Assembly: GCA_012513435.1 (NCBI GenBank)
Contig: JAAZCE010000019.1
Span: forward strand, 1 to 64,000
From: Clostridiales bacterium
Lineage (GTDB): Bacteria > Bacillota > Clostridia > Peptostreptococcales > Anaerovoracaceae
Direction of reading: 5' to 3'
DNA: 64,000 nucleotides
Shown: positions 14,120 to 43,736 of the stretch, piece after piece
Position numbering within the stretch: position 1 is the first letter of the stretch
How the letters are laid out: each line of letters begins with the position of its first letter
Made by a program: the position numbers and the translations under genes
The notes under the pieces: model-generated
The model's input: the letters and a program-made list of their open reading frames with translations, nothing else
Databases searched by the model: none
Told to the model about the DNA's origin: nothing

Positions 14120-15331
14120 ATGGACTACAAAACATATCTAAGAAATTATCCTGATAAAGACGGAAGATTCGGCCCTTACGGCGGAGCCTACCTGAGCGAC
14201 GAGCTGAGACCGGCCTTTGAAGAAATAACAGAAGCTTACTACAACATCTGCTATTCATCGAGATTCATAAACGAGCTGAGAAGGATACGCAGGGAATTCC
14301 AGGGACGACCTACACCTGTATACCACTGTGAAAAACTTTCCAATCAGTATGGAAAGTGCCAGATATATTTAAAGAGAGAGGATCTGAACCACACAGGAGC
14401 TCATAAGCTGAACCACTGCATGGGCGAAGGCCTTCTTGCAAAATTCATGGGCAAGAAACGACTCATAGCGGAGACAGGCGCTGGACAGCACGGTGTTGCT
14501 CTTGCAACTGCCGCCGCATATTTCGGAATGGAATGTGAGATACATATGGGTGAGGTGGACATAGCTAAGCAGGCGCCTAACGTAACGAGAATGAAGATAC
14601 TCGGTGCCAAGGTAGTCCCCGTAAGCCACGGGCTGAAGACTCTGAAGGAGGCCGTTGATTCGGCATTTGAATCATATGCTAAAAACTACAAGGATTCTAT
14701 ATACTGCATAGGTTCGGTTCTCGGACCACATCCTTTCCCCCTTATGGTTAGAGATTTCCAAGCTGTAGTAGGTCACGAGGCAAGAGAACAGTTCATGGAA
14801 ATGACCGGAGGAATGCCTGACGAGGTTTGTGCATGTGTAGGCGGCGGCAGCAATGCTATGGGGATGTTCATTCCTTTTCTTGATGACCCTGTTGAGATTA
14901 CTGGAGTGGAGCCTATGGGAAGAGGCTCTACGCTGGGAGACCACGCAGCTTCTATGATGTTCGGAGAAAAGGGCGTTATGCACGGTTTTGAAAGTATTAT
15001 GCTGAAGGACGAAAGGGGCGAACCTGCGCCGGTATATTCTATAGCTAGCGGTCTTGATTATCCGTCGGTAGGCCCTGAACATGCATTTCTTCACGACCTG
15101 CAAAGAGTAAAATATGAGGCCATAGGTGACGAGGAAGCCATGGACGCGTTTTTTAAGCTGTCAAGGCTTGAAGGAATAATCCCTGCTATCGAAAGCTCCC
15201 ACGCTCTTGCCTATGCAATAAAGCGCGCAAAGGAAAAGAAAAGAGGTTCTATCCTGGTGAATCTAAGCGGACGGGGTGACAAGGACATAGATTACGTTGT
15301 TGAGCATTACGGATATGGCGAAGGAAGATAA
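14120..15331 (+). CDS. trpB: Stand-alone tryptophan synthase beta-chain (TrpB) homologue
   Basis: Fold-type II PLP enzyme, 403 residues. Catalytic features of TrpB are intact: Lys96 in HTGAHKLN binds PLP, Glu118 is in [17 protein letters not shown] holds the phosphate, and [12 protein letters not shown] and NLSGRGDKD match the family. It would condense indole with serine, or carry out a similar beta-replacement. There is no trpA, trpC or other trp gene in the window, and no T-box or Trp leader upstream. Its last 17 bases overlap the MurE-like ligase, so the two are translationally coupled. Indole salvage is one explanation; supply of an unusual amino acid to the ligase is another. Confidence 0.88.
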
Positions 15332-16832
15332 AAAATTGAAACAGTATACTATCGAACAATATATTGAAATGCTGAAAGAAGCAGAACTGCTTGACAAGTA
15401 TGAGCTTTGGGGCAGAGGCGGTGAAGTCATTGCCTCTCTTACCTACGATTCAAAGGAGGCAGAGGAAGGCACCTTGTTCATATGCAAAGGCGCGGCCTTC
15501 AAGGCAGAGTACCTCCAGGAGGCTGTAAGCAGGGGGGCGTATTGCTATGTGGCGGAGAAAGCCTTTGAGGTTTCGGGTAGCATACCTTTCCTTATTGTAA
15601 AGGATATTCGCAAAGCGATGGCTCTTCTCGCCAACAAGTTCTACGACGAGCCATGGAGAGACCTTAAGGTTATAGCCTTTGGCGGAACCAAGGGCAAGTC
15701 AACATCGGTCTACTATATGAAATCCATTATTGACGGATATATTAAGACTCTAGGCAAGAAGGAGAGCGCCGTCATTTCTTCCATAGACATATACGACGGG
15801 AAGACAAGAGAAGAGTCTCATATTACCACGCCGGAAGCCCTTGAACTTCAAAGATATATTCGCAATGCGGCAGACAGCGGCATAGAATACCTTGGTATGG
15901 AGGCCTCGTCTCAGGCATTCAAGTATGGCAGGACTGATGGAATGAGATTCGATATAGCCGCCTTTTTGAACATATCCGAGGACCACATAAGCCCTGTGGA
16001 GCATGAGGATTTCGAGGATTATTTTTCATCTAAGCTGAAAATGTTCCAGCAGACGGATACAGCCATAGTCAATCTCGACACCGATCACATCCAAAGGATT
16101 CTTGAGGGCGCCAAGGCCGCAGGCGAAGTGGTGACCTTCAGCACGAAGGACGAAAATGCGGATTACTACGCATACGATATTAAGAAGGATGAACACAGCA
16201 TTAGCTTTAGAGTAAGGTGCAGGGATTTTGACGAAGATTTTATCCTGAACATGCCGGGTCTCTTTAATGTAGAAAACGGTCTGTGTACCATTGCAGCCGC
16301 AGGGAAGTTGGGAATCCCCAAGGAATACATTAAGTCGGGGCTTTCCAATGGCAGATCCAAGGGCAGGATGGAGCTTTTCATGAGTCGCGACAGGAACACC
16401 TTAGCCATCGTGGATTACGCCCACAATAAGCTGAGCTTTGAGAGACTTTTCGCTGCCATGAAGGAGGAATATCCTCAGTACAGGATAGTGTCCATATTTG
16501 GCTGTCCGGGGAAAAAGGCCCTCAACAGAAGAAAAGAGCTGGGGACTATTGCAGGTCGCAATGCCGATTACGTCTATCTGGTGGCGGAGGACCCAGGGCA
16601 GGAGCCGGTGGAGAAGATTTCCGGAGAAATAGCCGAATACGTCAAGGCGCAGGGCTGCCCCTACGAAATAATTGAAGACAGAGGCCAGGCCATAAAGAAG
16701 GCCATAGATATGGCAAGGGGCAAGACACTGCTTCTGATAACGGGTAAAGGCCAGGAAACGAGGCAGAAGTACGGAACACAGTATCTAGACTATACATCTG
16801 ACACCGAATACATCGAGAAATATTTGATATAA
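15315..16832 (+). CDS. MurE-like Mur ligase with altered amino-acid recognition motif
   Basis: ATP-dependent amide ligase of the Mur family, 505 residues, with N-terminal UDP-sugar-binding ([18 protein letters not shown]), central ATPase (GTKGKST at 124-130, [19 protein letters not shown], and the lysine of YFSSKLKMF that is carbamylated in the family) and C-terminal domains. The DNPR motif that recognises meso-diaminopimelate in MurE is replaced by DPGQ at 426-429, and the Lys-type sequence is also absent. The third substrate is therefore unlikely to be meso-DAP. The ATG at 15315 lacks a clear SD; a TTG at 15336 with GAAGGAAG before it is an alternative start. It overlaps trpB by 17 bases. 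Confidence 0.85.
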
Positions 16833-16878: not shown

Positions 16879-18123
16879 ATGGGAATAAAAAAAGCACATA
16901 CGAAGAAGACCATTATCACAATAACAATGCTTGCTGTTTTTATTATAGCAGGAGGGTGTTGTGCTATTTATTACTATACCACTCAGCTGGCATTATCCCT
17001 AAAAGGGTCTGCCAGCGAAACCGTTGGCCGTTATAGCGTATACGAGGATAAAGGTGCAAAGGCAAGGCTTCATGGAAAGGATGCTTCTGACAAAGTCAAG
17101 GTCAAGGGCTCCGTAGACACGTCTAAGCCGGGAGATTACACCATCGAATACACCATGGCAAACCTGTCCGTTAAGAGAACAGTCAAGGTAATGAATAAGA
17201 TGAATCCTGCCATAAACCTTACGGGTCTGGGTACAGTGGAAATGGTTCTGGGGGACAAGTACGAAGAACCTGGGTATGAGGCTATAGATGAAAAAGGAAA
17301 GAGCATAACCGACAAGGTGGAGATTTCCGGAGCCGACTTTAAGAAGGCCGGTGAGCAAAAGGTCATATATACGGTAAGCGATAACAAGGGAAACACTACC
17401 AGAGTGTCCAGAAGCGTGAATATAGCACCTAATACGGACTATGCTTCGCCGGGAGTTCCTGTGTGCATGTATCATTATGTTTACGATGAAAACAATCCCC
17501 CTGATGATTTGAATCAGAGGTTCGGCAACTATATTTCCATGCAGGATTTAGAGGAAGAGCTTAACTGGCTTAACGAAGAGGGCTATTACTACCCTACATG
17601 GAAGGAGCTTAGAGACTATGTAGACGGTAAGCAGCTTCTGCCAGAAAAGAGCATAATCATTTCCTTTGACGATGGAGCCATGAGCTTCCTTCAAAACGGT
17701 ATACCCGTTCTGGAAAAGTGCAAGGTGCCGGCCACCTGCTTCATGATAACCTCCTCAAACGGAGAAAGCAAGATAGCCGAACATAAGAGCAAGTATGTGA
17801 CGTACCAGTCCCACACTCATAATATGCACAGACCAGGAGGACATATAGGCCACGGAGGAATCTTCACAGCCATATCCAATGAAGAGGGTTTGGCGGACCT
17901 TAAGGAATCCATAAGAATATGTGGAACCAGCGATGCTCTGGCGTATCCATATGGTGATTACAACGACAGCAGCATAAAGATGGTAAAGGATGCCGGTTTC
18001 CTGTGCGCTGTCACAACGCAGCCGGGAAAGGCCTATCCAGGAGATGACCCTCTGCTTCTGCCGAGAGTCAGGATGGTTATGGGACAGAGTTTGGCTACAT
18101 TCAAAGATGATGTGAGGCCCTAG
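16879..18123 (+). CDS. Membrane-anchored polysaccharide deacetylase with two Ig-like domains
   Basis: A 414-residue cell-surface protein. One transmembrane anchor at about 13-35 is followed by two bacterial Ig-like (DUF5011-type) domains at about 50-110 and 112-192, then a NodB-type carbohydrate esterase family 4 domain. The esterase carries the Asp264-Asp265 pair in SFDDG and the His312 and His317 metal ligands in SHTHNMH, spaced as in PgaB/IcaB enzymes. ALAYPYGDY is the third motif. Likely role: N-deacetylation of peptidoglycan or a secondary cell-wall glycan, which would raise lysozyme resistance. It lies 47 bases after the MurE-like gene and may be in the same transcript. Confidence 0.9.
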   Translation: MGIKKAHTKKTIITITMLAVFIIAGGCCAIYYYTTQLALSLKGSASETVGRYSVYEDKGAKARLHGKDASDKVKVKGSVDTSKPGDYTIEYTMANLSVKRTVKVMNKMNPAINLTGLGTVEMVLGDKYEEPGYEAIDEKGKSITDKVEISGADFKKAGEQKVIYTVSDNKGNTTRVSRSVNIAPNTDYASPGVPVCMYHYVYDENNPPDDLNQRFGNYISMQDLEEELNWLNEEGYYYPTWKELRDYVDGKQLLPEKSIIISFDDGAMSFLQNGIPVLEKCKVPATCFMITSSNGESKIAEHKSKYVTYQSHTHNMHRPGGHIGHGGIFTAISNEEGLADLKESIRICGTSDALAYPYGDYNDSSIKMVKDAGFLCAVTTQPGKAYPGDDPLLLPRVRMVMGQSLATFKDDVRP

Positions 18124-25666: not shown

Positions 25667-26146
25667 TTATTTTTGATCTTCTTCCTTGGTGTTTTCTTTA
25701 GTAGCGTCTTGCTTGTCAGCACCTTCTTTTGTAGGCTCTTTACCGTTCATCTCTTCTACAGAATCTTCCGCAGATTGACTTTCATTTGAAGAGTTCTCGG
25801 CCTTTCCCGGTTTTTCATCTGACTTTTCCGTGGAGGAATAATCCTTCGTTGCAGTAAGCTCCGTCTGTTTTGGCCCTCGTCCCTGCAGAAGCCCCAGACA
25901 CTTTGTTATGCCGAAGATGATGGTGGCGTATGCAAGCCAACTAAAGGAATTGAGAAGGATGTACTGGATGCTGTCTCCCATCATATCCGAAACGGAGACA
26001 CCGTAGGAGGCGGCGTAGTTAACGATGTACATTATCGAAGAATAGAGGGCGTAAACGAAGAGAGCTGCCATAACAGCAGATACGACGTATAACAGGGTTA
26101 CCAGCCCCGACCTGCCGGTGTTTGAAATATTGGATTTTTTGCGCAT
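25667..26146 (-). CDS. Small membrane protein with a charged C-terminal tail
   Basis: A 159-residue protein with two or three hydrophobic segments in the first 85 residues (LVTLLYVVSAVMAALFVYAL and a second near SFSWLAYATIIFG) and then a 70-residue low-complexity tail rich in Glu, Lys, Ser and Asp. I do not recognise a family. The tail is expected to be disordered and cytosolic or extracellular depending on helix count. It is transcribed alone, divergently from the DHH phosphodiesterase gene at 26413. Confidence 0.7.
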   Translation of the reverse strand: MRKKSNISNTGRSGLVTLLYVVSAVMAALFVYALYSSIMYIVNYAASYGVSVSDMMGDSIQYILLNSFSWLAYATIIFGITKCLGLLQGRGPKQTELTATKDYSSTEKSDEKPGKAENSSNESQSAEDSVEEMNGKEPTKEGADKQDATKENTKEEDQK

Positions 26147-26343
26147 AAATATTACCTTATATAATACCTTTCTTAAATTTGTTTATCTCCACTATATTAT
26201 TGACTATAAATATGTTTGTTTCATGGTAATAATTTCAAGTAATGTATAGATTCTGTGGAGTTTTGGAGATGGGAAGCATTATTATATACTTGCAACGGAA
26301 GATTTTGTAAGAGAAGGGGAATGTGATAAGAAAGAAGACAAGA

Positions 26344-26363
26344 ATATCATAATATGATATAAT
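26344..26363 (+). promoter_or_regulatory. Promoter of the DHH phosphodiesterase-rplI-dnaB unit with overlapping palindrome
   Basis: TATAAT at 26358-26363 is overlapped by the inverted repeat ATATCAT-AAT-ATGATAT (26344-26360). The -35 region is weak. A regulator binding the palindrome would block or remodel the -10 region. The palindrome is AT-rich and could be chance. Confidence 0.4.
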
Positions 26364-26412
26364 AAATGCGTATACCCATAAACCGGAAGGGTCATTTTGA
26401 CAGGAGAGAGAT

Positions 26413-28179
26413 ATGTATGTTGGAAGAATAGAAAGACTGTTGGCACATTACTCGCCTTTGCCTATGTGTATAATAAACGCACAGGGGAAGGTAACTAGAG
26501 CCAGCAGCAAGATAGATGAAGTATTTAAGTATGACGGCATTGTCGATGGTGATATTTTCGCGTTGACAGGAATTAAACTGTGCGAAATCACAAAAGCCGC
26601 TTCGGAAGGAACGGCCCTGTATCTGAAGAGGAACGATAAGAGCTTCAAGGTACTTGCCGATTCCATAGGTGGAGATGACGTTTCGTCTATCATGCTCCAC
26701 TTTATAGATATGACGGCATACGATAATTTGAAGGATTTGTATAATAACGATAAGCTCTGCATAGCCCTGGTCAACGTAGACAATTTTGACGAGTTGACAT
26801 CCAGCGCGGGGGAAGACAGAGAAATGAAGCTTTCGGGAGAAATTGACAGACTCATCAGAGATTGGGCACACAGCATGGAAGCCGGTGTTTCCAGATACAG
26901 AGATCATCTTTATGAGATAGTGCTGACCAATAAAAACTATAAATGGCTTGTGAGCAACAAGTTTTCCATATTGGACGAAGCCAGAGAGATAGAAACGGAA
27001 GCTGATTTTCCGGTGACCCTGAGCATAGGCATAGGATTATACGGAAAAACTCCCGCGGAAAGCGAAGCCTACGCCCAGGATGCCTTGGATCTTGCTTTGG
27101 GGCGAGGTGGAGACCAGGCTGTGGTAAAGAATGTAAAGAACTTTGAGTACTACGGGGGCAAGACCCATAGCGTGGAAAAAAGTAATAAGGGCAAGTCCAG
27201 AATAATAGCTCATGCTCTCAAGCTTCTTATGAGCCAGGCATCAAAGGTATTCATTATGGGTCATAAGAATCCCGACATGGATTGCTTCGGAGCATCTTTG
27301 GGGATACACAGGCTGGCTGCCAGCATAGGCAAGGAAACATATATAGTAATAGATTCCTATAATGATGCGCTTACTAGCATATACGAGGACGCTAAGGATT
27401 CGGGAGAGTACGACTTTATATCAAGCGAAAGGTCCTTGAGCCTGCTTGACGGCAACTCTATGGTAGTAGTTCTTGACACTCACAGACCGGTTCTTGCAGC
27501 CTGTCTGGAGCTTGTGGAAAGGGCTGAAAAAACCGTAGTCATAGACCACCACAGGAAGGCGGAGGACGCCTTTACGGGAACTATACTTTCGTACATGGAA
27601 TCCTATGCGTCATCTACCTCGGAGCTGGTTACGGAGGTGATACAGTATGCCTGCGAGAAAAAAGCTCTCAGTAAGATGGAGGCGGATGCACTTCTTGCCG
27701 GAATAATGGTGGATACCAACAGGTTTGCCGTCAAGGCAGGAGTGAGGACCTTCGAGGCAGCATCTTGGCTTAGGAGAAACGGTGCAGATCTTGAGAAGGT
27801 CAGACGGTATTTTCAGGCTGATTCCAACAGCTTTAAGATGAGAGCTAACTGCATAGCCAACGCCGGATTTTATGAAGGCGGTATTGCAATGTCCATATGC
27901 ACAGGCCTAAACCCTAATTCACAGATAATAAATTCTCAAGTGGCCGACGAGCTTCTTACAATCAAGGGCATCAAGGCCAGCTTCGTAGCAGGGCAGAACG
28001 AATGTGGCAGAACGGTTGTCAGCGCCAGGTCTCTAGGAGATATAAACGTACAACTGATAATGGAAAAATTTGGCGGAGGTGGCCATTTTAACACGGCAGG
28101 CGCTCAGAGCGACCTTTCGCCGGAGGATATTTTAAAGCAAATTTCTTTAGAACTTCACACAAGGAGGATAAAATCATGA
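26413..28179 (+). CDS. GdpP-like c-di-AMP phosphodiesterase (PAS-degenerate GGDEF-DHH) lacking membrane segments
   Basis: A 588-residue DHH/DHHA1 phosphodiesterase related to GdpP. Order: PAS-like domain (about 5-95), a degenerate GGDEF domain (about 105-250, ending [11 protein letters not shown]), then the DHH domain with His284, Asp288 and Asp290 in HKNPDMDC, Asp355 in VLDTHRP and the DHH triad at 378-380, and DHHA1 with [11 protein letters not shown] and His558. Classical GdpP has two N-terminal membrane helices before PAS; here the protein begins directly at the PAS domain, so it should be soluble. It is expected to hydrolyse c-di-AMP to pApA. Its stop overlaps the rplI start (ATGA), and rplI-dnaB follow as in other Firmicutes. 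Confidence 0.92.
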
Positions 28180-28619
28180 TAGTTATACTTACTAAAGACG
28201 TAAAGGGAACGGGCAAGGCAGGAGAAGTGGTAAAGGTTAACGATGGATACGCCAGAAACATGCTTCTTCCCAAGGGGCTTGCAAAGGAAGCAACAGAGGG
28301 GAATGTAAGAAGCCTTGAAAAGCAAAAAAACATAGCTGCCGAGAAGATTGAAGAGCAGAAGGAAGCGGCAAAGGAGCTGGCTAAGAAAATGGAAGCCATG
28401 AATCTTCAGATAATTTCAAAAGGCGGAGAAAGCGGTAAACTTTTTGGTTCTATAACATCCAAGGACATCGCTGAAGCCCTTGAAAAGCAGGGTGGAATCA
28501 AGGTGGATAAAAAGAAGATTGAGCTTGCGGGTCCTATCAAGCAGACGGGAACCACACATGTAACGGTAAAGCTGTTTCCCGAAGTATCGACAAAATTAAA
28601 GGTAACGGTTACAGTATAG
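28176..28619 (+). CDS. rplI: 50S ribosomal protein L9
   Basis: A 147-residue L9 with the N-terminal rRNA-binding domain ([32 protein letters not shown]), the long Lys/Glu helix and the C-terminal domain. Overlaps the phosphodiesterase stop by 4 bases (ATGA), so it is translationally coupled. Confidence 0.98.
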
Positions 28620-28641
28620 TTATATCAGCGGGAGAGTAAAC

Positions 28642-29979
28642 ATGGAACAAAGAATTCCTCCTCATAGCATTGAAGCGGAAAAATCTGTTTTGGGAGCAGC
28701 CCTGCTTTCTAAGGATGCTCTTTTTGACGTTATAGAAGTGGTTAGAGCCAATGATTTTTATGACCAGAATCACAAGGAAATATTCCAGACCATATTGGAG
28801 CTGAATAAGAGAAACGCTCCTGTTGACTTCCTGACGGTCTGCGAAGAGCTGAAGAAGAGAAACAGCCTCAATATGGTGGGAGGCAGAGCATATGTGGCTT
28901 CCCTTTCTTCCGGAACCCCGACTACATCCAACGCTACGGAGTATGCCAAGATAGTTGCAGAAAAAGCCTCCCTGCGCAGACTTATCAGCATGGCTGATGA
29001 TATTGTGGTTAAAGGATACGAGGACAATATGGGAGCCGAGCAGATGCTGGATTACGCGGAGAGCGGTGTCTTTGAAATATCTCAGGCCCGCCAAAAGGGG
29101 CAGTACACTCACATCAAGGATGTGCTACTGCAGAATATTGAAATAATTGATAAAGCATCACAGATGGACGGGGGCCTTACGGGAATAACCACGGGGTTCA
29201 AGGATCTCGATGAGAAAACATCGGGATTGCAAAAGTCGGATTTAATAATTCTTGCGGCCAGGCCGGCTATGGGCAAGACGGCTTTTGCCCTCTCACTGGC
29301 TCTCAGCACAGCTATAAAAGGAAAAGCATCGGTCATGGTTTTTAGCATGGAAATGTCCAAGGAACAGCTTGGGCAGAGACTGCTCTCCATGGAATCCAAG
29401 GTTCCTATGCAGAGCTTGAAGACAGGCAGACTTGAAAGGAGAGACTGGGACGATATCAACATTGCCCTGGACAATCTTTCCAAAACAAAGATACATATAG
29501 ATGATACAGCAGGCGTAGGCATAATGGAAATGAAGAGCAAGTGCAGAAGGCTCAAGGCGGAAGAAGGGCTTGACCTTGTGATAATAGACTATCTTCAGCT
29601 TATGAATCCTGAGGGACGGGCCGACTCCAGGAACCAGGAGATTTCTGTGATTTCAAGAAACCTCAAGCTTCTGGCAAGGGAGCTTGACTGCCCTGTAATC
29701 GTTCTATCCCAGCTTTCCCGAGCACCTGAGACCAGAACGGACCACAGACCTATGCTCTCCGACCTCAGAGAATCCGGCTCCATAGAGCAGGATGCGGACA
29801 TAGTGCTGTTTTTGTATCGTGATGAATACTACAACGAGGATACGGAGTTTCCGGGACAATGTGAAGTAATTGTCGCCAAACAGAGAAGCGGTCCGACAGG
29901 AAAATTCAATGTTACATGGCTTGAAAAGATGACTAAATTCGTAGACAGCGCTGCAGGAGGCAGTGTCGGTGGTATGTAA
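28642..29979 (+). CDS. dnaB: Replicative DNA helicase
   Basis: A 445-residue DnaB-type hexameric helicase. The N-terminal domain begins RIPPHSIEAEKSVLGAALL; the RecA-like domain has Walker A in ARPAMGKTAFAL, Walker B in LVIIDYLQLM, and the downstream SRAPETR and SGSIEQDADIVLFLYRDEYY motifs. No intein interrupts it. It needs a loader; the next gene is the likely partner. Confidence 0.98.
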   Translation: MEQRIPPHSIEAEKSVLGAALLSKDALFDVIEVVRANDFYDQNHKEIFQTILELNKRNAPVDFLTVCEELKKRNSLNMVGGRAYVASLSSGTPTTSNATEYAKIVAEKASLRRLISMADDIVVKGYEDNMGAEQMLDYAESGVFEISQARQKGQYTHIKDVLLQNIEIIDKASQMDGGLTGITTGFKDLDEKTSGLQKSDLIILAARPAMGKTAFALSLALSTAIKGKASVMVFSMEMSKEQLGQRLLSMESKVPMQSLKTGRLERRDWDDINIALDNLSKTKIHIDDTAGVGIMEMKSKCRRLKAEEGLDLVIIDYLQLMNPEGRADSRNQEISVISRNLKLLARELDCPVIVLSQLSRAPETRTDHRPMLSDLRESGSIEQDADIVLFLYRDEYYNEDTEFPGQCEVIVAKQRSGPTGKFNVTWLEKMTKFVDSAAGGSVGGM

Positions 29980-29993
29980 AACCGGAGGAAATG

Positions 29994-31265
29994 ATGAACT
30001 TTAAGAAAGAGAATATCAGAGATTATTTCCTGCTGGATACCGGCGTGGAAAATATTTTTATAAATGAATATATGGTGACTGCCCCCGGTGATTTTATCAA
30101 AGTGTATCTGTTTGCTTCCATGTATGCCAACTTGGAAACAGATGTTAACAACGAGGATATTGCCAAGCATCTGTCCCTCGAATACGAGGACGTTTTGAAG
30201 GCTTGGAACTACTGGGAACGTTTGGGGGCAATAAGAAAGATAAAGAAGGACCCAGATGATAAATTTCTCTACGATGTTGAATTTGTTTCTCTCAAGGAAC
30301 AGCTTTACGGGGAGAAGAACAGGAAGAAGACCTATTCTCAGGATCAGAGCGTTCAGGATTTCATGGCAGATAAAGAGATACAGGGAATGTTCAGTACCAT
30401 AGAGAAAATAGCCGGACGGGTTATCAACGGAACGGAAATCATGGAGATATTGTCCTGGATAAGCGATTTTAACGCCACACCAGAGATAATCGTCTACGGA
30501 TATTCCTACTGTGTTCAGAGGAAAAAGAAAAATCTCAAGTACATCGGGGCCGTTATCAACAACTGGGTAAAGGAAGGCCTCTATGATGTTATTTCTGTGG
30601 AAAAGTATTTGAGCGAAAATGATAAGAAGCAGCATTTGTACACAAGGGTTTTTCAGGCTCTTGGCTTCAGCAGGCAGGCAACGGAGGAGGAAAAGCGCAT
30701 AATGGATTCATGGTTTGAGACCATGGAGTTTTCATTAAGTAAGGTTCTTGAGGCGTGCAGCAAGACTTCAGGAATATCCAACCCCAATATCAATTACGTT
30801 AACAAGGTCCTGGTAAACTGGTATGAAGAACATAATCACATCGGCGGCAAGAAGAGCGGTGACTTGACAACAGGGGATATTATGGGATATTATGAGACCT
30901 TGCAGAGCATGGAAGAAGGGGAGGCCGAAGAGCGAAGGCGAAAAGTCTACGATGCGGTTCCCAGGATAAAAGCCATAGAGGAAGAATTAAATTCGCAGAG
31001 TGCAGGGCTTTCTAAGATAATTATTTCGGATACTATCGACAAAGGTGAAGCGATGAAGCGGATTAAGGCCAGAATAGAAGAGCTCAACAGGGAAAAAGCA
31101 TTTCTGTTGACGGATAATGGCTTTGAACTTGATTATATGGATATAAAATACAGATGTCCTAAATGTAAGGACACAGGAATGTTAGAAACAGGAGAAAGAT
31201 GTCAATGCTTTGGAGAAATAACAAAGGAAAAAATAAACCTGACAACCAAACAGAAAACAGAATAG
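29994..31265 (+). CDS. DnaD-like primosome protein fused to a DnaC-type N-terminal zinc domain
   Basis: A 423-residue protein in the helicase-loader position after dnaB. It has an N-terminal winged-helix-like region (about 1-100) and two DnaD/DnaB2-type helical repeats (YIGAVINNWVKEGLYDV and NYVNKVLVNWYEEHN). The last 110 residues match the N-terminal part of Clostridial DnaC/DnaI: a helical stretch (VYDAVPRIKAIEEELN), then YRCPKCKDTG and CQCF with Cys388, Cys391, Cys403 and Cys405 as probable zinc ligands. The AAA+ ATPase that normally follows is missing: the frame ends 20 codons later. Start taken at the second ATG (29994), which suits the GGAGG; 29991 is possible. The end overlaps the next gene by 67 bases. 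Confidence 0.88.
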   Translation: MNFKKENIRDYFLLDTGVENIFINEYMVTAPGDFIKVYLFASMYANLETDVNNEDIAKHLSLEYEDVLKAWNYWERLGAIRKIKKDPDDKFLYDVEFVSLKEQLYGEKNRKKTYSQDQSVQDFMADKEIQGMFSTIEKIAGRVINGTEIMEILSWISDFNATPEIIVYGYSYCVQRKKKNLKYIGAVINNWVKEGLYDVISVEKYLSENDKKQHLYTRVFQALGFSRQATEEEKRIMDSWFETMEFSLSKVLEACSKTSGISNPNINYVNKVLVNWYEEHNHIGGKKSGDLTTGDIMGYYETLQSMEEGEAEERRRKVYDAVPRIKAIEEELNSQSAGLSKIIISDTIDKGEAMKRIKARIEELNREKAFLLTDNGFELDYMDIKYRCPKCKDTGMLETGERCQCFGEITKEKINLTTKQKTE

Positions 31266-33712
31266 CTCCCGAAACCGATGTCAACGACTACGTCAATGAG
31301 ACTGTCAGCGATGATATCGATGATAAAGAAAGGCTTTTAGAAGAAAACGAAGATGCTAAGAGAATGTATGAGGAGATACAGGCTTTGCGTCAGAGTATTG
31401 CTGCATTAAAAACGCCGGAGGAAGAAATCCCGCTGGCTGAAGCAAAAACACCGGAAGGGGCTAAGGCTTCCCAGGCTGTAAGCACGGAGGATACAGGGGA
31501 GTTATTCAAAGAGACCGAGGAGATAAGACTGGCCAAGCAGGCTATAATGGAGCAGGCTCGGAAGGACGAAGTGGAAAAGGCTAGACAGGCAAAGGAAGCA
31601 AGGCTAAGGGAAATCCAGGTACAGAAGCAGCAGCAGGAGGCTTTGGAAGCTCAGAGAAGGGTTGCCGCCGTGCAGCAGGAGGCTGAGCGAAAGAGATGGG
31701 AAGCCGAGGAAGCGGAAAGACGCATGAGAGAGGTTTCCATAAGAAATGTTGTAAAGGAAACCCAGGAGCAGACTGAGCAGGCTAAGCTAAGAGCAGAGCG
31801 GGAAGCCTTTTTCATGGAAGAAAAAAAGGGAATAGAAGAATTCGCTGCCAGGAAGAAATCAGACGAGGAAAAGGACAGAGACCTTACCGAAGCCAAGGCC
31901 GAGCTTCTTTCTATACAGAAAGAGCAACGAACGACCAACAGGGAAATTGAGGCACGGAAAAAACGAGAAAACAAAGTTAGGAGAGCTGCGGAAAAAGCAG
32001 AAAAAGAAGAGATAAAAAGAGCGAAAAAAGCGGCTGCCATCAGTGAAAAGGAACGGCTTGCAGCAGAGCGCAAGGCCGCCGCCGAATTAGGTGCCGGTAT
32101 TGTAAACATCAAAGGCGTCAAGGTGACCACAGAGCTTAACGAGGAGCCTACGGTTTCATGGAAGGATTTCTTCGGTATAAAGGGCAGAGAAGAAAGAAAA
32201 GCGATAAAAGAGGCAAGCAAAGAAGAAAAAATGGCCCTTGAAAGAGAGCGTGAGGCCAGGAAAGAGGAAGCAAGACTCAAGGCCGAGATGCTCAGCAAGC
32301 AGAGGCAGGAGAAGTATAGAAGCAGCAGACACGGGATACTGATGGGTAGATTCAAGAGGTACTGCGATAAGCATAAAGTTGCCTTGCTTACGGTTTTTGG
32401 AGTCGTACTCATAGTTGCCGTAGGCACAGCGGGGATATTTAATTATTGCACAGCCTACGAATATTCATACAACGGCAAAGCTCTGGGGTACGTTAAGGAA
32501 AAGGATGAGGTCCTTAGAATCACGGACCTTGTTCAGGGCGCTTTGACAGAGGACAAGAAGGTAGACGTTGTCATAGATGCCAAGGACGATATTGAGTTCA
32601 AGAGAGTTCCCGCCATGGGACAAATTGATATTGACACATCAGATGACGTGCTGAAAAGATTGTCCTACATGGGTGATGTGAATGTCAAGGCCATGGGGAT
32701 ATACATAAATGGAGAAAAGATCGGAGCGGTAGACAACAAGAGCACTGCCGCAAAGGTTCTGGAGCATATTAAAGAAGAGTACTCCTGTAAGGAGGACGGA
32801 GCGAAGACAGAGGAAGCTGTATTTATTGAAAACGTTGAAATAAAACGTAGCAATACTTCTCTTCAGGACATTTCTTCGGAGAAGGAAATGGTGGATGTTC
32901 TCTGCACCAGCGGAGAAAAGGAATCCATACATAAGGTTGTGGTGGGAGAGACTCTGGCAGATATAGCCAAGCTCTATTCCATGGCAGAGGATGATATTCT
33001 GAAGGACAACACGGATATAGATCCTAAGAAGCTGGAGGTGGGGACATCCCTGGTAATAAGACAAAACGCACCTATCCTTACGGTGAAGATTACATATGTC
33101 ATTACTCACGATAAAGTAATCGAGCATAAGGTCAACAAGAAGGATGCGCCTGACATATATGAAGGATATACAAAAACCCAGCAGGCAGGTAAGGATGGTC
33201 TTAACGAAGTTACGGAAAGGGTAACCACCGTAAACGGAGAATCCATAGAGGCTAAGGCCTTGTCTACCACCATCAAGGAAGAGCCTGTAACAGAGGTTAT
33301 CCTCATAGGAACTAAGGAGAGACCGCCTACGGTAGGTTCAGGCAAGTATATATGGCCAATTTCAAGCGGATATACTCTTACCTCTGAATTTGGGTATAGA
33401 TGGGGCAGCCTTCACGAAGGAATAGACCTTGGCGTACCTACTGGGACGACCGTTAAAGCTGCCGACGGTGGCACGGTAGTATCATCCGGCTATGAAGGGG
33501 CCTATGGATACTGTGTCATAATAGACCATCAGAATGGTATGAAGACAAGGTATGCACATAATAGTCGGAACCTGGTAAGCGTTGGAGAAAAGGTCTTCCA
33601 GGGACAGGAAATAGCCTTATCGGGAAATACAGGACGAAGCACGGGACCACATCTTCACTTTGAGGTAATAGTCGGAGGAGAACCACAGAATCCACTCAAC
33701 TACTTGCCGTAG
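31199..33712 (+). CDS. M23 peptidase with cytosolic coiled coil, transmembrane helix, LysM and G5 domains
   Basis: An 837-residue bitopic protein. Residues about 45-385 are highly charged (Glu, Lys, Arg, Ala, Gln) and predicted coiled coil on the cytosolic side. One transmembrane helix lies at about 393-415. Outside come a beta-rich region, a LysM domain (about 578-620, VVGETLADIAKLYSM), a G5 domain (about 629-707) and a C-terminal M23 endopeptidase (about 717-837) with His739 and Asp743 in HEGIDLG and His818/His820 in HLHFE. All zinc ligands are present, so it should be active on peptidoglycan cross-links. It starts within the 3' end of the dnaD-like gene in another frame, after an AGGAG. 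M23 proteins of this group usually lack such a long cytosolic coil. Confidence 0.9.
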   Translation: MSMLWRNNKGKNKPDNQTENRIAPETDVNDYVNETVSDDIDDKERLLEENEDAKRMYEEIQALRQSIAALKTPEEEIPLAEAKTPEGAKASQAVSTEDTGELFKETEEIRLAKQAIMEQARKDEVEKARQAKEARLREIQVQKQQQEALEAQRRVAAVQQEAERKRWEAEEAERRMREVSIRNVVKETQEQTEQAKLRAEREAFFMEEKKGIEEFAARKKSDEEKDRDLTEAKAELLSIQKEQRTTNREIEARKKRENKVRRAAEKAEKEEIKRAKKAAAISEKERLAAERKAAAELGAGIVNIKGVKVTTELNEEPTVSWKDFFGIKGREERKAIKEASKEEKMALEREREARKEEARLKAEMLSKQRQEKYRSSRHGILMGRFKRYCDKHKVALLTVFGVVLIVAVGTAGIFNYCTAYEYSYNGKALGYVKEKDEVLRITDLVQGALTEDKKVDVVIDAKDDIEFKRVPAMGQIDIDTSDDVLKRLSYMGDVNVKAMGIYINGEKIGAVDNKSTAAKVLEHIKEEYSCKEDGAKTEEAVFIENVEIKRSNTSLQDISSEKEMVDVLCTSGEKESIHKVVVGETLADIAKLYSMAEDDILKDNTDIDPKKLEVGTSLVIRQNAPILTVKITYVITHDKVIEHKVNKKDAPDIYEGYTKTQQAGKDGLNEVTERVTTVNGESIEAKALSTTIKEEPVTEVILIGTKERPPTVGSGKYIWPISSGYTLTSEFGYRWGSLHEGIDLGVPTGTTVKAADGGTVVSSGYEGAYGYCVIIDHQNGMKTRYAHNSRNLVSVGEKVFQGQEIALSGNTGRSTGPHLHFEVIVGGEPQNPLNYLP

Positions 33713-33750
33713 TAAATTATTCGCCATAGGCGAAAGAACAATGTAAGCAT

Positions 33751-33785
33751 AACAGGAAAGTCCATATAGACTTTCCTGTTTTTGT
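33751..33785 (+). terminator. Terminator after the M23 peptidase gene
   Basis: AACAGGAAAGTC (33751-33762) and GACTTTCCTGTT (33769-33780) form a perfect 12-bp stem with a 6-base loop, followed by TTTTTG. A second short palindrome TTCGCC-ATA-GGCGAA (33720-33734) lies just upstream, right after the stop. Confidence 0.9.
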
Positions 33786-33835
33786 TCTATAGGAGATCTT
33801 CTCTCAATATAATTACAAAAAGAGGAGGAGAACCT

Positions 33836-34096
33836 ATGGCTAATCATACAGTTACCATAGATAACAGAGAGAAGCTGACCATAACGGAAATCGCAGATGT
33901 GGACAGCTTTGATGAAGAAGAGATAAGAGCTACTCTTTTGAAGGGCGCCATGGTCATTAGAGGAGAGAAGCTGCACATTCAAATGTTGGACCTGAAAGAA
34001 GGAAGTGCGGTGATAACGGGAACGGTTAACTCCATAATGTACGTGAAAGTTCGCCAAAAGGGAGAGGGCGGATTTCTAGCTAAAATAATAAAATAG
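33836..34096 (+). CDS. yabP: Sporulation protein YabP
   Basis: An 86-residue YabP/YqfC-family protein (ANHTVTIDNREKLTITEIAD; VVI and GSAVITGTVNSIMY segments). In Bacillus it is expressed in the mother cell and needed for spore formation. Start at 33836 chosen because AGAGGAGG precedes it; the frame is open upstream through the terminator. yabQ starts 2 bases later. Confidence 0.92.
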   Translation: MANHTVTIDNREKLTITEIADVDSFDEEEIRATLLKGAMVIRGEKLHIQMLDLKEGSAVITGTVNSIMYVKVRQKGEGGFLAKIIK

Positions 34097-34098
34097 TC

Positions 34099-34560
34099 AT
34101 GGAGGTAACGGAACTCATTTTTCAGCAGGGAAAAACCTTCTGCGTCATGTTGGCGGCAGGGATTTTGACGGAAAGCCTTTGGCACATAAAAAAGCGTTGG
34201 AGTTTCCCCATGGCAATAGGAGAAATATTGTACTGGGCAATGGTGGCTGTAATAGTAACGATGTTTTTGTATTACAGCTCCTTCGGTCAGGTATCCTTTC
34301 ACGGAATGCTAGGGTTTTTCACAGGGCTATTATTGTGGAAAAAGATATGCTGTGATATAATTTCTCCATGGGTAAAAACAGGAGAAGCAAAGAGTACAAA
34401 AGCAGCAGCCGCGTCATCGGCATGGAGGAAGCCAGGAAGAGGCGGCTTGAAAAAAGACGGTCGGAAAAGCTTAAGGAAGAGGAGCGCGCGCGTTACGCTG
34501 CAAGCCAGCAGACCAGAGGAAAAAGAGCCATTAGAAAAAGCCAAAACAGACGGCGGCTGA
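34099..34560 (+). CDS. yabQ: Spore cortex biosynthesis protein YabQ
   Basis: A 153-residue membrane protein with three hydrophobic segments in its first 95 residues (FCVMLAAGILTESLWHIKK; IGEILYWAMVAVIVTMFLYY; GMLGFFTGLLLWKKI), matching YabQ, needed for the spore cortex in Bacillus. The final 60 residues are low-complexity and basic, and are encoded in the region that overlaps divIC in a different frame by 193 bases. That tail is likely a by-product of the overlap. No strong ribosome binding site of its own; it depends on yabP translation. Confidence 0.88.
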   Translation: MEVTELIFQQGKTFCVMLAAGILTESLWHIKKRWSFPMAIGEILYWAMVAVIVTMFLYYSSFGQVSFHGMLGFFTGLLLWKKICCDIISPWVKTGEAKSTKAAAASSAWRKPGRGGLKKDGRKSLRKRSARVTLQASRPEEKEPLEKAKTDGG

Positions 34561-34814
34561 TAATAGCTCTCGTTGTCGTCCTTATAATAGTTTTGCTGGG
34601 AGCTACTATTTTCAAAATTGTTTCCCTGAACAAAGAAAAAATTGACACCCAGAAGCACCAGGCAGAGTTGATAGAGGAAAAGAAGACCCTTCAGAAGCAG
34701 CTTGATAAAATAAACGACCCCAAGAATTTGGAGGAACAGGCAAGAGATCAGCTGAGGCTTATAAAACCGGGAGAGGTTCTTTATATGTTTCCGGAGGAAA
34801 TGACAGGAGACTGA
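34368..34814 (+). CDS. divIC: Septum formation initiator DivIC
   Basis: A 148-residue DivIC/FtsB-type division protein: a basic, Arg/Lys/Glu-rich cytosolic N-terminus, a single membrane helix (about 64-84, LIIALVVVLIIVLLGATIF) and a coiled coil (IDTQKHQAELIEEKKTLQKQ) ending EEQARDQLRLIKPGEVLY, the family's conserved tail. The ATG at 34368 gives a long overlap with yabQ; a later start such as the Met at residue 19 is possible and would still overlap. It overlaps rnmV by one base (TGATG). Confidence 0.9.
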   Translation: MGKNRRSKEYKSSSRVIGMEEARKRRLEKRRSEKLKEEERARYAASQQTRGKRAIRKSQNRRRLIIALVVVLIIVLLGATIFKIVSLNKEKIDTQKHQAELIEEKKTLQKQLDKINDPKNLEEQARDQLRLIKPGEVLYMFPEEMTGD

Positions 34815-35350
34815 TGATAGTAAAAGAAGTAATAATAGTAGAAGGCAGAGACGATACCAATGCGGTCAAAAAAAGTGTGGATGCCGTCACAATAGAAACA
34901 CATGGATATGGTATAACCAAGGAGACCTGGCAGCTTATAGACAAGGCCTACCAAGGCCCGGGAATTATTGTCTTCACTGATCCAGACCATGCGGGAGAGC
35001 AGATACGGAGAAGGATAACAGAGAAATTCCCCAATGCTAATCAAGCATTTCTTGACAGAACATGCGCTACAAAGGCCGGAGATATAGGCATAGAAAATGC
35101 TGCCCCGGATGCTATCAGGGAAGCACTGAGCAAGGCTAAGTGTTCCTTTGAAGAATCCTCAGAGGCCGTTTTTGCTGTGGAGGATTTGCTTGTCGCCGGA
35201 CTGGTAGGGCAGGCCAATTCCGCGGAAAAAAGGCATAAGCTGGGCAAGATATTGGGCATAGGATACGGCAATGGCAAAACTCTGGTTCAGAGACTCAATA
35301 AATATGGAATAGATATAGAGGACTTCAAAAAAGCCCTTAAGGAGCTATAG
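34814..35350 (+). CDS. rnmV: Ribonuclease M5
   Basis: A 178-residue Toprim-domain nuclease that matures 5S rRNA. Catalytic Toprim motifs are IIVEGRDD (Glu and Asp-Asp region) and TDPDHAG (DxD); the GDIGIENA segment and C-terminal GYGNGKTLVQRL are typical. Its stop codon is directly followed by the rsmA ATG, a conserved arrangement. Confidence 0.96.
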   Translation: MIVKEVIIVEGRDDTNAVKKSVDAVTIETHGYGITKETWQLIDKAYQGPGIIVFTDPDHAGEQIRRRITEKFPNANQAFLDRTCATKAGDIGIENAAPDAIREALSKAKCSFEESSEAVFAVEDLLVAGLVGQANSAEKRHKLGKILGIGYGNGKTLVQRLNKYGIDIEDFKKALKEL

Positions 35351-36232
35351 ATGAAATTATATTCACCTACAACGATTTCGGACATTAAAGCACGACATGA
35401 CTTTAAGCTCTCCAAAAGTCTTGGACAAAACTTCATAACGGACAGAAACGTAATAGAGAAAATAGTGGAAGGAGCGCAGATAGGACCGGAAGACATGGTT
35501 ATCGAAATCGGGCCCGGAATCGGCGTGCTTACAGCAGAGGCGGCAGAATCAGCTGCCAAGGTTGTAGCGGTGGAAATAGACAAGAAGCTCATTCCTATTT
35601 TGGGAGAGACTCTTAGAGAATACGACAATGTGCAAATAATCAATCAGGATATACTTAAAACTGATTTGAACGAAATAATAAGAGAGCGACGAAAGGCACA
35701 AGATTTTACGGGAGAGGTTAAGATAATAGGAAATCTCCCCTACTATATCACTACCCCTATCGTCATGGATATTCTTGAAAAGGGTGTTGAAGCCGAGAGC
35801 ATTACCATCATGATGCAGAAGGAAGTGGCTGATAGAATAAGCTCCCCGCCGGGAGGGAGGATATACGGAGCTATTTCCGTTGCCGTCCAGTATTACTGTC
35901 AGGTGGAAAAGATAATCAACGTATCCAAGGAGGTTTTCATACCACGACCCAAGGTGGATTCCACCGTATTAAGGCTTTTGCTGAGAAAGGAAAAGCCCGT
36001 GGAGCTTAGGGATGAAAAGACCTTTTTCGCGTGTATCAAGCACGGCTTCGGTCAGAGGAGAAAGACTCTCCTCAACTCACTGACGGGAGTAAATGGACTG
36101 GATAAGGACGGCGTGAAGGAAGCGCTGACGGATGCGGGAATAGATTGGATGAGAAGGGCCGAGACCCTGAATATAAATGAATTTGCCGACATAGCGAATC
36201 AAGTGGCAAAAAAGACATTGGCACAGGAGTAG
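35351..36232 (+). CDS. rsmA: 16S rRNA dimethyladenosine methyltransferase A
   Basis: A 293-residue KsgA-type enzyme that dimethylates two adjacent adenines near the 3' end of 16S rRNA. SAM motif VIEIGPGIGVLT, the acidic VVAVEID, catalytic NLPYYIT, and the C-terminal domain with HGFGQRRKTLLN are all present. It abuts the rnmV stop codon without a gap. Confidence 0.97.
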   Translation: MKLYSPTTISDIKARHDFKLSKSLGQNFITDRNVIEKIVEGAQIGPEDMVIEIGPGIGVLTAEAAESAAKVVAVEIDKKLIPILGETLREYDNVQIINQDILKTDLNEIIRERRKAQDFTGEVKIIGNLPYYITTPIVMDILEKGVEAESITIMMQKEVADRISSPPGGRIYGAISVAVQYYCQVEKIINVSKEVFIPRPKVDSTVLRLLLRKEKPVELRDEKTFFACIKHGFGQRRKTLLNSLTGVNGLDKDGVKEALTDAGIDWMRRAETLNINEFADIANQVAKKTLAQE

Positions 36233-36238
36233 AATGGA

Positions 36239-38224
36239 ATGAGCAAGTTAAAGGCATTTTTTGAAAAAGATTTGAAGCATTATGTGTTGCTGGTATTTAT
36301 TGCATCTGTATTGCTGGATTTGATAATTGAAACATTGGGCAGACATTCACTAATTGGGAGCATTGGGTTCATGGTTCAGCATCCTCTCGTTTTTTTCTGT
36401 AATGTGATGCTGGTTTTTGCGGTGCTGTCCCTTTCACTGCTTTTCAGGAAGAGAATATTCATGATGTGTGTCTTCGGAATGGCGTGGCTGGTAGTAGGCA
36501 TCATCAACGGAGTAATACTTTTTAACAGGATGACGCCTTTTACCGTAAAAGACCTTAGCAACCTGGAGGACGGACTTTCCATAGTTACCACTTATTTTTC
36601 CGTAAAGACTTTGATTTTCGTCATTATAGGTGCGGCGCTTCTGGTGGTAGGCCTTATTCTCCTTTACAGAAAAACCCCTAAAATACAGGAAAAAATCAAC
36701 TTTAAGAAAACCATTGCTGTTATCATAATAATCTTCCTGGCTACCATCGGTGCCATTCAGGGAGCCATGAAGGTAGGTATTCTAGATACATTTTTCGGCA
36801 ACCTGGCCTATGCGTACAGAGACAACGGCGTTACATACAGCTTTTTTATTACATGGGTCAAGGAAGGTGTAGATAAGCCCGATAATTATTCAAAGGCAGA
36901 GATTGAAGGCATCTTTACTGGTGGCGAGTTGGGAGACGATAACGTATACACGCCGGGAACCGATGATGATACGGACGTGGATAGTACGCCTAATATACTA
37001 TTTTTGCAGCTTGAATCATTTGTTGACCCTACCATGATGGAGGGCGTGGAATATTCCAAGGACCCTATACCTAATTATAGGAAGCTGCTGGAGAATTATT
37101 CATCGGGATATCTGATGGTACCTGCGGTAGGTGCCGGTACAGCTAACGTTGAATTTGAAGTGATGACAGGTATCAGCGTTAAGTTTTTCGGGCCGGGAGA
37201 ATATCCTTACAAGAGCGTTTTGAGAGATGTGACCTGTGAAAGCTCGGCTTATGATGTTAAGCAGATGGGATATACAGCTCACGCTATCCACAACCACAGA
37301 GGAGCATTTTACGGAAGAAACAAGGTCTTTGCGGACTTGGGATTCGATACATTCACAAGTCTTGAATACATGAACAACGTGACTAAGACTCCGAAGAACT
37401 GGGCTAAGGATGGTATACTGACGGAAGAAATACTGGCGGCCCTTCAAAGCACAGAGGGGCAGGATTACATTTATACCATATCCGTGCAGGGGCACGGTAA
37501 ATATCCGACGGAGCAGGAGATAGAAAATCCTGCAATAACAGTAACCAAGGCTGCCTCTGATGAGGAAAAATGGACCCATGAGTACTATGCAAATCAGGTC
37601 TACGAAATGGACCTCTTTGTAAAGGAGCTGACGGACACTTTGTCAAACTACGATGAAGATGTGATACTTGTTATGTACGGCGACCATCTGCCGGCTCTCG
37701 ATATGACAGAGGAAACCATGAAGAGCGGCTCCCTGTATGAGACACAGTACATCATTTGGGATAACTTCGGAATGAAGAAGCAGGATAAGGATGTGGCTAC
37801 TTACCAGTTGAACGCGGAGGTTTTCAAGCGTCTCGGATTTACCGCTGGGATGATGAACAAATATCATCAGAACTACAGTGGTACGCCGGGGTATATGTCT
37901 AACCTTAAGATGCTGGCATACGATATGCTCTACGGAGACAAATACATTTACGCTGAAAAGAATCCTTTTCAACAAACAAAGCTTAAGATGGGCGTAAAGG
38001 AGATCAAGATAAATGAAGTCGTTCAGATAGGCGAGGATTACTATATCAAGGGCGAAAACTTTACTGAATTCAGCAAGATATCACTAGACGGCAAGGTTCT
38101 TAAGACTGTATATTTGGGGCCAACCATACTTGCCCTCAACGAGGAAGTTGACCCTGAGGATGTATCCCGTATGAAGGTCAGTCAGGTGGAAAAGAATAAG
38201 GAAGTATTGAGCACGACAGAATAA
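36239..38224 (+). CDS. LTA synthase family glycerol-phosphate/sulfatase-type membrane enzyme
   Basis: A 661-residue protein with five N-terminal transmembrane helices (about 15-165) and an extracellular alkaline-phosphatase-fold domain of the LtaS family. Metal and catalytic motifs are FLQLESFVDP, the nucleophile threonine region GAGTANVEFEVMTG, SVQGHGKYP and YGDHLPAL. The last 90 residues after the catalytic domain may form an extra beta domain (GEDYYIKGENFTEF). It should transfer glycerol-phosphate or a related group to a glycolipid; synthesis of true polyglycerol-phosphate LTA is not certain in Clostridia. Confidence 0.92.
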   Translation: MSKLKAFFEKDLKHYVLLVFIASVLLDLIIETLGRHSLIGSIGFMVQHPLVFFCNVMLVFAVLSLSLLFRKRIFMMCVFGMAWLVVGIINGVILFNRMTPFTVKDLSNLEDGLSIVTTYFSVKTLIFVIIGAALLVVGLILLYRKTPKIQEKINFKKTIAVIIIIFLATIGAIQGAMKVGILDTFFGNLAYAYRDNGVTYSFFITWVKEGVDKPDNYSKAEIEGIFTGGELGDDNVYTPGTDDDTDVDSTPNILFLQLESFVDPTMMEGVEYSKDPIPNYRKLLENYSSGYLMVPAVGAGTANVEFEVMTGISVKFFGPGEYPYKSVLRDVTCESSAYDVKQMGYTAHAIHNHRGAFYGRNKVFADLGFDTFTSLEYMNNVTKTPKNWAKDGILTEEILAALQSTEGQDYIYTISVQGHGKYPTEQEIENPAITVTKAASDEEKWTHEYYANQVYEMDLFVKELTDTLSNYDEDVILVMYGDHLPALDMTEETMKSGSLYETQYIIWDNFGMKKQDKDVATYQLNAEVFKRLGFTAGMMNKYHQNYSGTPGYMSNLKMLAYDMLYGDKYIYAEKNPFQQTKLKMGVKEIKINEVVQIGEDYYIKGENFTEFSKISLDGKVLKTVYLGPTILALNEEVDPEDVSRMKVSQVEKNKEVLSTTE

Positions 38225-38256
38225 CTCTCTGAATCATTTTGCAAGGAGATTCCTGT

Positions 38257-38820: not shown

Positions 38821-38884
38821 TACGTGATATGATATAGACTAATTGAGTACAGTATATAGAAATAGTGGGAAGACAGGGGCACAT

Positions 38885-39658: not shown

Positions 39659-39676
39659 AGAAAAGAGAGTCGTAGT

Positions 39677-40964: not shown

Positions 40965-40982
40965 AACAAGGGACGCTTTTTA
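40950..40982. terminator. Bidirectional terminator between Rrf2 gene and spoIIR
   Basis: AAAAGCGCCC(C) and GGGACGCTTTT pair around a short loop, with A and T flanks on both sides. It includes the last codons of the Rrf2 gene and lies between convergent genes. Confidence 0.85.
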
Positions 40983-41008
40983 AATGTGTCTGATCTTATA
41001 GAGAGTGG

Positions 41009-41605: not shown

Positions 41606-41636
41606 TTTTTCCTCCCCTAATTTCTTGGTGTAAAGC

Positions 41637-41666
41637 AAGTCTTATCAAGAAGAGGAAATATTATAC
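41637..41666 (-). promoter_or_regulatory. Putative sigma-F promoter of spoIIR
   Basis: On the minus strand GTATA (41666-41662), a 15-base spacer and GATAAGACTT (41646-41637) match the sigma-F/G consensus GywTA-N15-GgnrAnAnTw at all but one defined position. spoIIR is known to depend on sigma-F in Bacillus, so position and identity agree. Confidence 0.75.
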
Positions 41667-41683
41667 ACTTTACAGGAAATTTT

Positions 41684-43612: not shown

Positions 43613-43736
43613 ATTACAGCCTCCTATTCTATTATCCTTATATTCTTCGTATATATTATTCAGTTCAAGAATCATTTATGATATAATAAGAAATCATATT
43701 TGTTAGTTCACAAAAAAGAAACATGAGGTGAAAACT

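Follow-up and report, generated by a model that had tools for sequence, protein, structure and literature searches.

The question raised by this locus is whether a stand-alone tryptophan synthase beta chain (TrpB) and the MurE-type ligase encoded next to it work together. Both genes lie in a window of 64,000 nucleotides, the whole stretch of DNA that was analysed (Clostridiales bacterium, assembly GCA_012513435.1, contig JAAZCE010000019.1, positions 1 to 64,000, forward strand). The original prediction saw TrpB as the source, by synthesis or recycling, of an amino acid that the neighbouring ligase attaches to a muropeptide or related nucleotide. Both predicted open reading frames were confirmed where they had been placed, and both pass the cut-offs of their families (Table 1): TrpB reached 528.6 bits against TIGR00263 (cut-off 392.45), while the ligase, which also has a MurE fold, reached 307.7 bits against TIGR01085 murE (cut-off 257.3).

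Table 1. Features of the TrpB–ligase locus. Positions are those of the window; residue numbers of the ligase run from TTG 15297.
Feature	Position	Strand	Basis
TrpB, 403 aa, stand-alone (TrpA-less) clade	14120..15331	+	ORF and TIGR00263
MurE-type ligase, EDPG clade, start uncertain	15315..16832	+	ORF, TIGR01085, AlphaFold model, tree
P-loop GTKGKS of the ligase, residues 130-135	15684..15701	+	130-134 invariant, 135 nearly so (19 sequences)
Tyr210, column of E. coli Gln190	15924..15926	+	Y in 118/121 clade rows
Lys246, column of the catalytic (carbamylated) lysine	16032..16034	+	K in 121/121 clade rows
Lys407, column of Arg389	16515..16517	+	K in 120/121 clade rows vs R in 58/58 other MurE rows
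E-D-P-G (431-434), columns of DNPR	16587..16598	+	alignment with DNPR enzymes
Glu487 (in KGxE), aligned with E. coli E468 and S. aureus E460	16755..16757	+	E in 113/121 clade rows
Polysaccharide deacetylase with Ig-like repeats, neighbour only	16879..18123	+	ORF and profile match

The sequence upstream of the TrpB ATG is GAGAGGAAAAGCA. The two genes had been described as overlapping, and their tight spacing is real, but an overlap of 35 nt needs the ligase to start at TTG 15297, while its homologues start further in. Two other starts fit better, ATG 15315, giving a 17-nt overlap, and TTG 15336, which lies behind GGAAG and would leave a 4-nt gap; whichever of the three applies, translational coupling of the two genes is possible. 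Scans for promoters and terminators returned about as many sites as in shuffled sequence. The deacetylase said to follow the pair is indeed present in the window, but none of 86 other ligase loci has this deacetylase within five genes, so far as their contigs extend.

The proposal of a functional pair had been made to depend on conservation, and the pair proved not to be conserved. Besides the window, 100 loci were fetched, of which 10 without a ligase ORF and four duplicates were removed; in the 86 that remained, and over the length of their contigs, TrpB was never five genes or fewer away from the ligase, and neither was the window's nucleotidyltransferase. TrpB was likewise not beside the ligase in any of the six other ligase-bearing members of the genus. 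The two genes occur independently, the ligase being present in 11 of the 16 genomes with a window-like TrpB and in 89 of 148 overall (p = 0.59; among the matches listed), and many genomes in which the ligase is the only MurE match are without a window-like TrpB (again among the matches listed). The tight spacing, together with the N-to-H and Q-to-E changes near the PLP lysine that are fixed in the TrpB clade, would fit a TrpB that supplies the ligase's substrate; non-conservation and the absent co-occurrence nevertheless led to the rejection of this role, which we regard as highly improbable. The gene arrangement of the window is probably derived. Among the matches listed in a literature search that covered mainly openly available papers, no report of a TrpB–ligase pair was found.

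The catalytic residues of TrpB had been predicted to be intact, and those checked (K, E, D, E and S) are all present in the alignment. When 14 sequences of its clade, one of them without the N-terminal part, were compared with 16 TrpA-linked sequences (residue numbers here being taken to follow Salmonella TrpB), the active-site lysine, the two glutamates, the aspartate and the serine were kept wherever letters exist; besides the two changes near the PLP lysine, 12 columns were fixed differently in the two sets. The protein thus resembles TrpB1 (TIGR00263) in the catalytic residues checked, and differs from it in those clade-specific changes and in the company it keeps: among the matches listed, TrpA above its cut-off was found in none of the 16 genomes with a window-like TrpB (73-80% identical to that of the window; 16 of 148 family genomes), while it was present in 39 of the 40 genomes with the other TrpB (50-56% identical), the exception being G105. 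The 16 include fragments in G027, G053 and G057, as well as G087, which also carries a partial TrpB of the other kind. The reported lack of TrpA was borne out for the whole of the own assembly, in which trpA (the one other trp gene searched for) gave no match, whereas 14 of 14 control genomes were positive. Since this TrpB belongs to a TrpA-less clade and keeps the catalytic residues checked, ordinary indole salvage, originally put forward as the null hypothesis, remains the best reading. On its sequence, TrpA-independent but otherwise ordinary TrpB chemistry is the simplest reading, and the enzyme would most likely join salvaged indole to serine; an altered nucleophile is possible.

The AlphaFold model of the ligase (pLDDT 91.9) includes the N-terminal domain, and its first 33 matches in the PDB were all MurE enzymes or the plastid protein that resembles MurE (highest TM, by query length, 0.86). 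An alignment was built of 121 rows of the ligase's clade, in which some genomes are entered both from a named and from an unnamed collection, together with three solved enzymes and 58 MurE-type rows from outside the clade; the columns of the catalytic Lys224 and of R192 (E. coli numbering) are kept in 121/121 clade rows. After fragments and near-duplicates had been removed from the tree input (182 rows reduced to 173), the ligase fell, as one side of a branch with an SH-aLRT of 100, into a clade of 113 rows (quick method, unrooted tree), with the MurE enzymes of S. aureus and T. maritima outside. Its members come from Lachnospiraceae, the window's own family, Oscillospiraceae, Coriobacteriia, Arcanobacterium, Gleimia and Helcococcus, and Alloscardovia joins them on a long branch. 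The subgroup of the window (12 rows, support 95) comprises genus mates, two other members of the family (G072 and G130) and, from Lachnospiraceae, one metagenome genome and the three isolates (Claveliimonas, Mordavella and Sellimonas), whose ligases are 64-67% identical to that of the window; this grouping with Lachnospiraceae suggests transfer between families. In one family genome (G110; L086:7980-11064) two ligases of the clade stand in tandem.

The ligase had been predicted to have exchanged the DNPR motif for DPGQ. The motif has indeed changed, but the letters differ from those given, the D-N-P-R columns holding E-D-P-G with Q as the next residue; in the 121 clade rows they read mostly E/D, D, P/A/S and G. 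In detail, the D413 column has E in 95 and D in 24 rows, N414 is replaced by D in 119, and R416 by G in 97 and by A in 16, whereas other MurE rows keep R416 in 56 of 58. Both features of a meso-DAP MurE, the DNPR motif and Arg389, are thus absent from the ligase, which has EDPG and Lys407. The sections available of PMC9434261 describe that in DAP enzymes R389 binds the carboxylate of the L-centre and R416 both carboxylates, and that Gln190 of E. coli MurE is among the residues binding the UDP-MurNAc-peptide. With meso-DAP MurE of the DNPR type the ligase shares three domains, the ATP site and most UDP-MurNAc residues; it differs in the replacement of R389, N414 and R416. With the L-Lys MurE of S. 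aureus (PDB 4c12, 4c13) it shares the fold, the catalytic lysine, KGxE and the lack of an Arg at the end of the DNPR columns, but the S. aureus enzyme has the Arg389 equivalent and DNPA and lies outside the clade. Among L-Lys enzymes the DAP-binding residues are described as varying more, and for S. aureus MurE contacts of L-Lys with R383, D406 and E460 are reported (PMC9434261, same sections); here the corresponding columns contain Lys407, Glu431 next to Asp432, and Glu487. Since the Arg that contacts L-Lys (R383) is a Lys, and Gln190 a Tyr, the two substrates might each be something other than the classical one.

The motif is no strict guide to the substrate, since the MurE of T. maritima, which adds Lys and can use DAP in vitro (PMC9434261, sections available), keeps the Arg of DDPR. 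A substrate call from the NCBIfam models had to be abandoned, as neither a DAP nor an L-Lys equivalog was passed: the ligase missed the cut-offs of all the DAP equivalog models examined, and reached 359.6 bits against the L-Lys model NF010628, below its cut-off of 536. Throughout the clade, an acidic pair (E431, D432) and a glycine take the place of the residues for meso-DAP binding, and the two acidic residues, together with Glu487, would suit a distal amine. We infer that the ligase is a MurE and that the third residue it adds to UDP-MurNAc-L-Ala-D-Glu is an L-diamino acid with a single carboxylate, L-lysine or L-ornithine. An Orr-like racemase near some copies of the ligase (three of 86 loci, and four of six genus mates) may point to ornithine.

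The ligase is not the only MurE of its genome, the opposite outcome, together with the use of meso-DAP, having been named as speaking against the original prediction; three MurE-type genes are present. The second enzyme that had been asked about, of DNPR type, was found in part: the full-length one, on contig C83, reads ENPR (34% identical to the ligase; 451.4 bits against the DAP-ligase model NF001126, cut-off 373), while the copy reading DNPR (G000:C42:5286-6398; L003, L213) is MurE-like but has no UDP-binding domain at its N-terminus. Matches equal in extent to the latter occur in G034, G047, G059, G071, G110, G123 and G129 (among the matches listed), genomes in which dapB and the EDPG ligase are also present; four of these proteins (C42, G047, G071 and G129) were found to have DNPR. 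In the own genome DapB is encoded in the window, at 58262-58999, and dapB matches lie on three contigs, C108, C49 and C101 (two pieces).

The own assembly is estimated to be 100% complete, in 109 contigs, with 7.41% contamination. Contamination as the source of the window's contig was rejected: its eight stretches agree in tetranucleotides with C83, C104 and C49 (mean r 0.88-0.94), and r was 0.92 and 0.89 for two further contigs of the genome, C97 and C42. Outsiders gave lower values (genus mate G127, 0.67-0.72; three Lachnospiraceae fragments, 0.61-0.75), and against single fragments r was 0.75 for C. aminobutyricum and 0.84 for Gallibacter. Because the profiles agree, the window and C83 enzymes were assigned to one genome despite the 7.41%. 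Window positions 26001-45000 were matched in all 20 other genomes of the genus. A viral origin was also rejected, no relative having been found in viral contigs in one scan with a single protein as query. About 10-17 kb downstream of the ligase, at 26413-33712, the window carries dnaB, DnaD-like and M23 peptidase kinds of genes; in two family members (L067 and L068) the ligase lies directly behind such a block, so this chromosomal region may be common to them.

Across the family, the EDPG-clade ligase was found in 89 of 148 genomes, among the matches listed. By the same matches it is the only MurE match (E 1e-40) in 55 of 148, and in 27 of the 87 that are at least 90% complete; it is accompanied by a full-length enzyme like that of C83 in 23 and by another second match in 11 (for seven of these the place is listed and the N-terminal domain is absent; for the other four the place is unlisted). 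The C83-like type occurs alone in 33, a third type in nine, and no MurE match in 17, among the matches listed. The C83-like class was set by similarity and place; its motif was read in 35 of 56 genomes, as DNPR in 31, ENPR in the own genome and xHNR in three (G060, G124 and G131), and in G062 the second enzyme may lack the N-terminal domain, as its match begins at residue 94. In 43 of the 55 ligase-only genomes the single match is the ligase itself; in five its place is unlisted (G012, G096, G102, G114 and G125) and in seven there is no match at E 1e-40 (G001, G026, G050, G081, G091, G105 and G112), the class of the seven and the five resting on the other ligase search and the lack of a further match. 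Incomplete genomes weaken every absence in these MurE and dapB counts. The third type (L201-L205, L207 and L216, from five genera), with motifs such as EEDPRDE and a GKRD loop in six of seven, is the sole MurE match of each genome, among the matches listed.

These counts bear on a ligase that acts off the wall and, with an ATP-grasp protein and a racemase, builds another peptide or polymer. Such a role would accord with Q190Y at the acceptor site, with a slight similarity to cyanophycin synthetase (72.4 bits against a cut-off of 850) and with the presence, in 23 of 148 genomes (among the matches listed), of a full-length enzyme like that of C83 beside the ligase in the genome, but many near-complete genomes, which need a MurE, have the ligase as their sole MurE match (among the matches listed), the structural model includes the N-terminal domain and R192 is unchanged in 121/121 rows; we consider it unlikely.

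Among the matches listed, dapB was found in 27/55 ligase-only genomes, 23/23 with ligase and C83-like enzyme, 11/11 with ligase and another second match, 30/33 with the C83-like type alone, 4/9 with the third type and 7/17 with no MurE match. The difference between the ligase-only and C83-like-only classes (p = 6e-5) was also seen at 90% completeness (13/27 versus 16/17; p = 0.003) and was not significant at 95% completeness or more (7/14 versus 7/8; p = 0.17), all among the matches listed. With one genome of at least 90% completeness per genus, dapB was found in 28/28 genera that have a C83-like match or a different second MurE match (27/27 without G060) and in 10/19 ligase-only genera (p = 7e-5; among the matches listed), and for these 10 lysine synthesis alone would be an explanation. 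Carriage of the C83-like, mostly DNPR, MurE thus tracks dapB, while that of the EDPG-clade ligase does not. That the ligase still adds meso-DAP, through a differently built pocket, is very unlikely in our judgement: altered motifs do occur in other family members too, and 27/55 ligase-only genomes have dapB, but both DAP-binding arginines are replaced across the clade and 28/55 ligase-only genomes gave no dapB match (both counts among the matches listed). The original interpretation therefore fared differently in its two halves, the loss of meso-DAP recognition and the use of another amino acid being supported by the pocket replacements, the clade and the dapB pattern, and the role of TrpB as supplier being unsupported.

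Within the genus, seven of 49 genomes have the ligase, 36 have other MurE matches without it (motifs mostly unread) and six have none. G182 (99% complete) carries both kinds, and in G175 (98%) the EDPG-clade ligase is the only match at E 1e-40; this distribution looks like gain and replacement.

In relatives, the ligase often has other neighbours. Within five genes of it, 37 of the 86 loci encode an ATP-grasp protein, 29 an Asp/Glu-type racemase, 23 both and 43 either. The ATP-grasp gene (E 1e-30) was found in 62/89 ligase genomes versus 6/59 others (p = 2e-13; among the matches listed, some of them just 32-42% identical). It lies one or two genes upstream of the ligase in four of six genus mates, and one such protein, compared over 405 columns, shares 35% identity with a Latilactobacillus curvatus carboxylate-amine ligase whose gene adjoins that of an amino-acid racemase, to which a cassette racemase is 36% identical. 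The L. curvatus pair would correspond to AslA/RacD; in L. lactis, AslA, an ATP-grasp D-Asp ligase acting on L-Lys, is encoded in an operon with RacD (PMC4155827, sections available). The cassette differs from that of lactic acid bacteria in that a MurE-type ligase joins it, and the window locus has neither partner, the ATP-grasp protein having no match in the own genome. Because a D-aspartate-ligase-like ATP-grasp gene and, less often, a racemase gene lie near the ligase, the residue added would probably receive a D-amino-acid bridge in relatives, giving an A4-type wall; two cassette racemases exceed the cut-off of the cysteate racemase CuyB, so the D-acid may be one other than D-Asp. The gene order in Claveliimonas bilis is ATP-grasp, racemase, EDPG-clade ligase and DNPR MurE, and in L087 and L112 a DNPR enzyme immediately follows the ligase. 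Downstream of the ligase, genus mates L267, L268, L270 and L271 encode a C_GCAxxG-type protein, an acyl-CoA-synthetase-like protein (both named from sequence alone) and the Orr-like ornithine racemase, three of the four carrying also a FAD-enzyme-like ORF.

Two strains of Atopobium, a genus listed with an A4-alpha wall (PMC11382707, sections available), carry the ligase; the parts available of PMC3681970 and PMC6113628 give no wall type for the clade's genera. A third residue other than Lys or Orn, for instance that of a group B wall whose D-diamino bridge would come from the racemases, seems unlikely. It would agree with the Orr-like racemase close to some ligase copies and with the listing of Eubacterium under B2-alpha walls, among others (PMC11382707, same sections), and less well with the two acidic motif residues and Glu487, which would suit a distal amine, or with an ATP-grasp homologue of the D-Asp-ligase kind. 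Among the matches listed in the literature search, which covered mainly openly available papers, no gene set of MurE-like, ATP-grasp and racemase genes was found.

Taken together, TrpB and the ligase are likely to be unrelated genes that are neighbours by chance, the former a TrpA-less enzyme of indole salvage and the latter a MurE for L-Lys or L-Orn, whose product in relatives would carry a D-residue bridge. Since the cassette partners are absent from the window locus and an ENPR-type MurE is present in the genome, the ligase would here be either a second MurE giving mixed stems or the remnant of a cassette, and two third-residue chemistries may coexist. Tentatively, one cell might have two working MurE enzymes, one for meso-DAP and one for Lys or Orn, and mix or switch its wall, the non-DAP enzyme being mobile, often together with the D-Asp-ligase-like protein and the racemase, and replacing the DAP enzyme in some genus mates; this is a possibility to which we give less than even weight. 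In the same search of mainly openly available papers, no bacterium with MurE enzymes of two specificities was found among the matches listed.

Cross-linking depends on the third stem residue, which also has a bearing on the host receptor by which wall fragments are sensed, Lys and Orn muropeptides having been discussed in connection with the host receptor NOD2 (PMC11382707, sections available). The signature K389, D414, G416 and Y190 (E. coli numbering) marks a widespread, probably non-DAP, clade of MurE, and would aid the prediction of wall type from genomes; Table 1 of PMC11382707, as available, has no wall-type entry for 10 of 14 clostridial genera. Genomes with both kinds of MurE would provide naturally occurring examples of walls that are mixed or can be switched.
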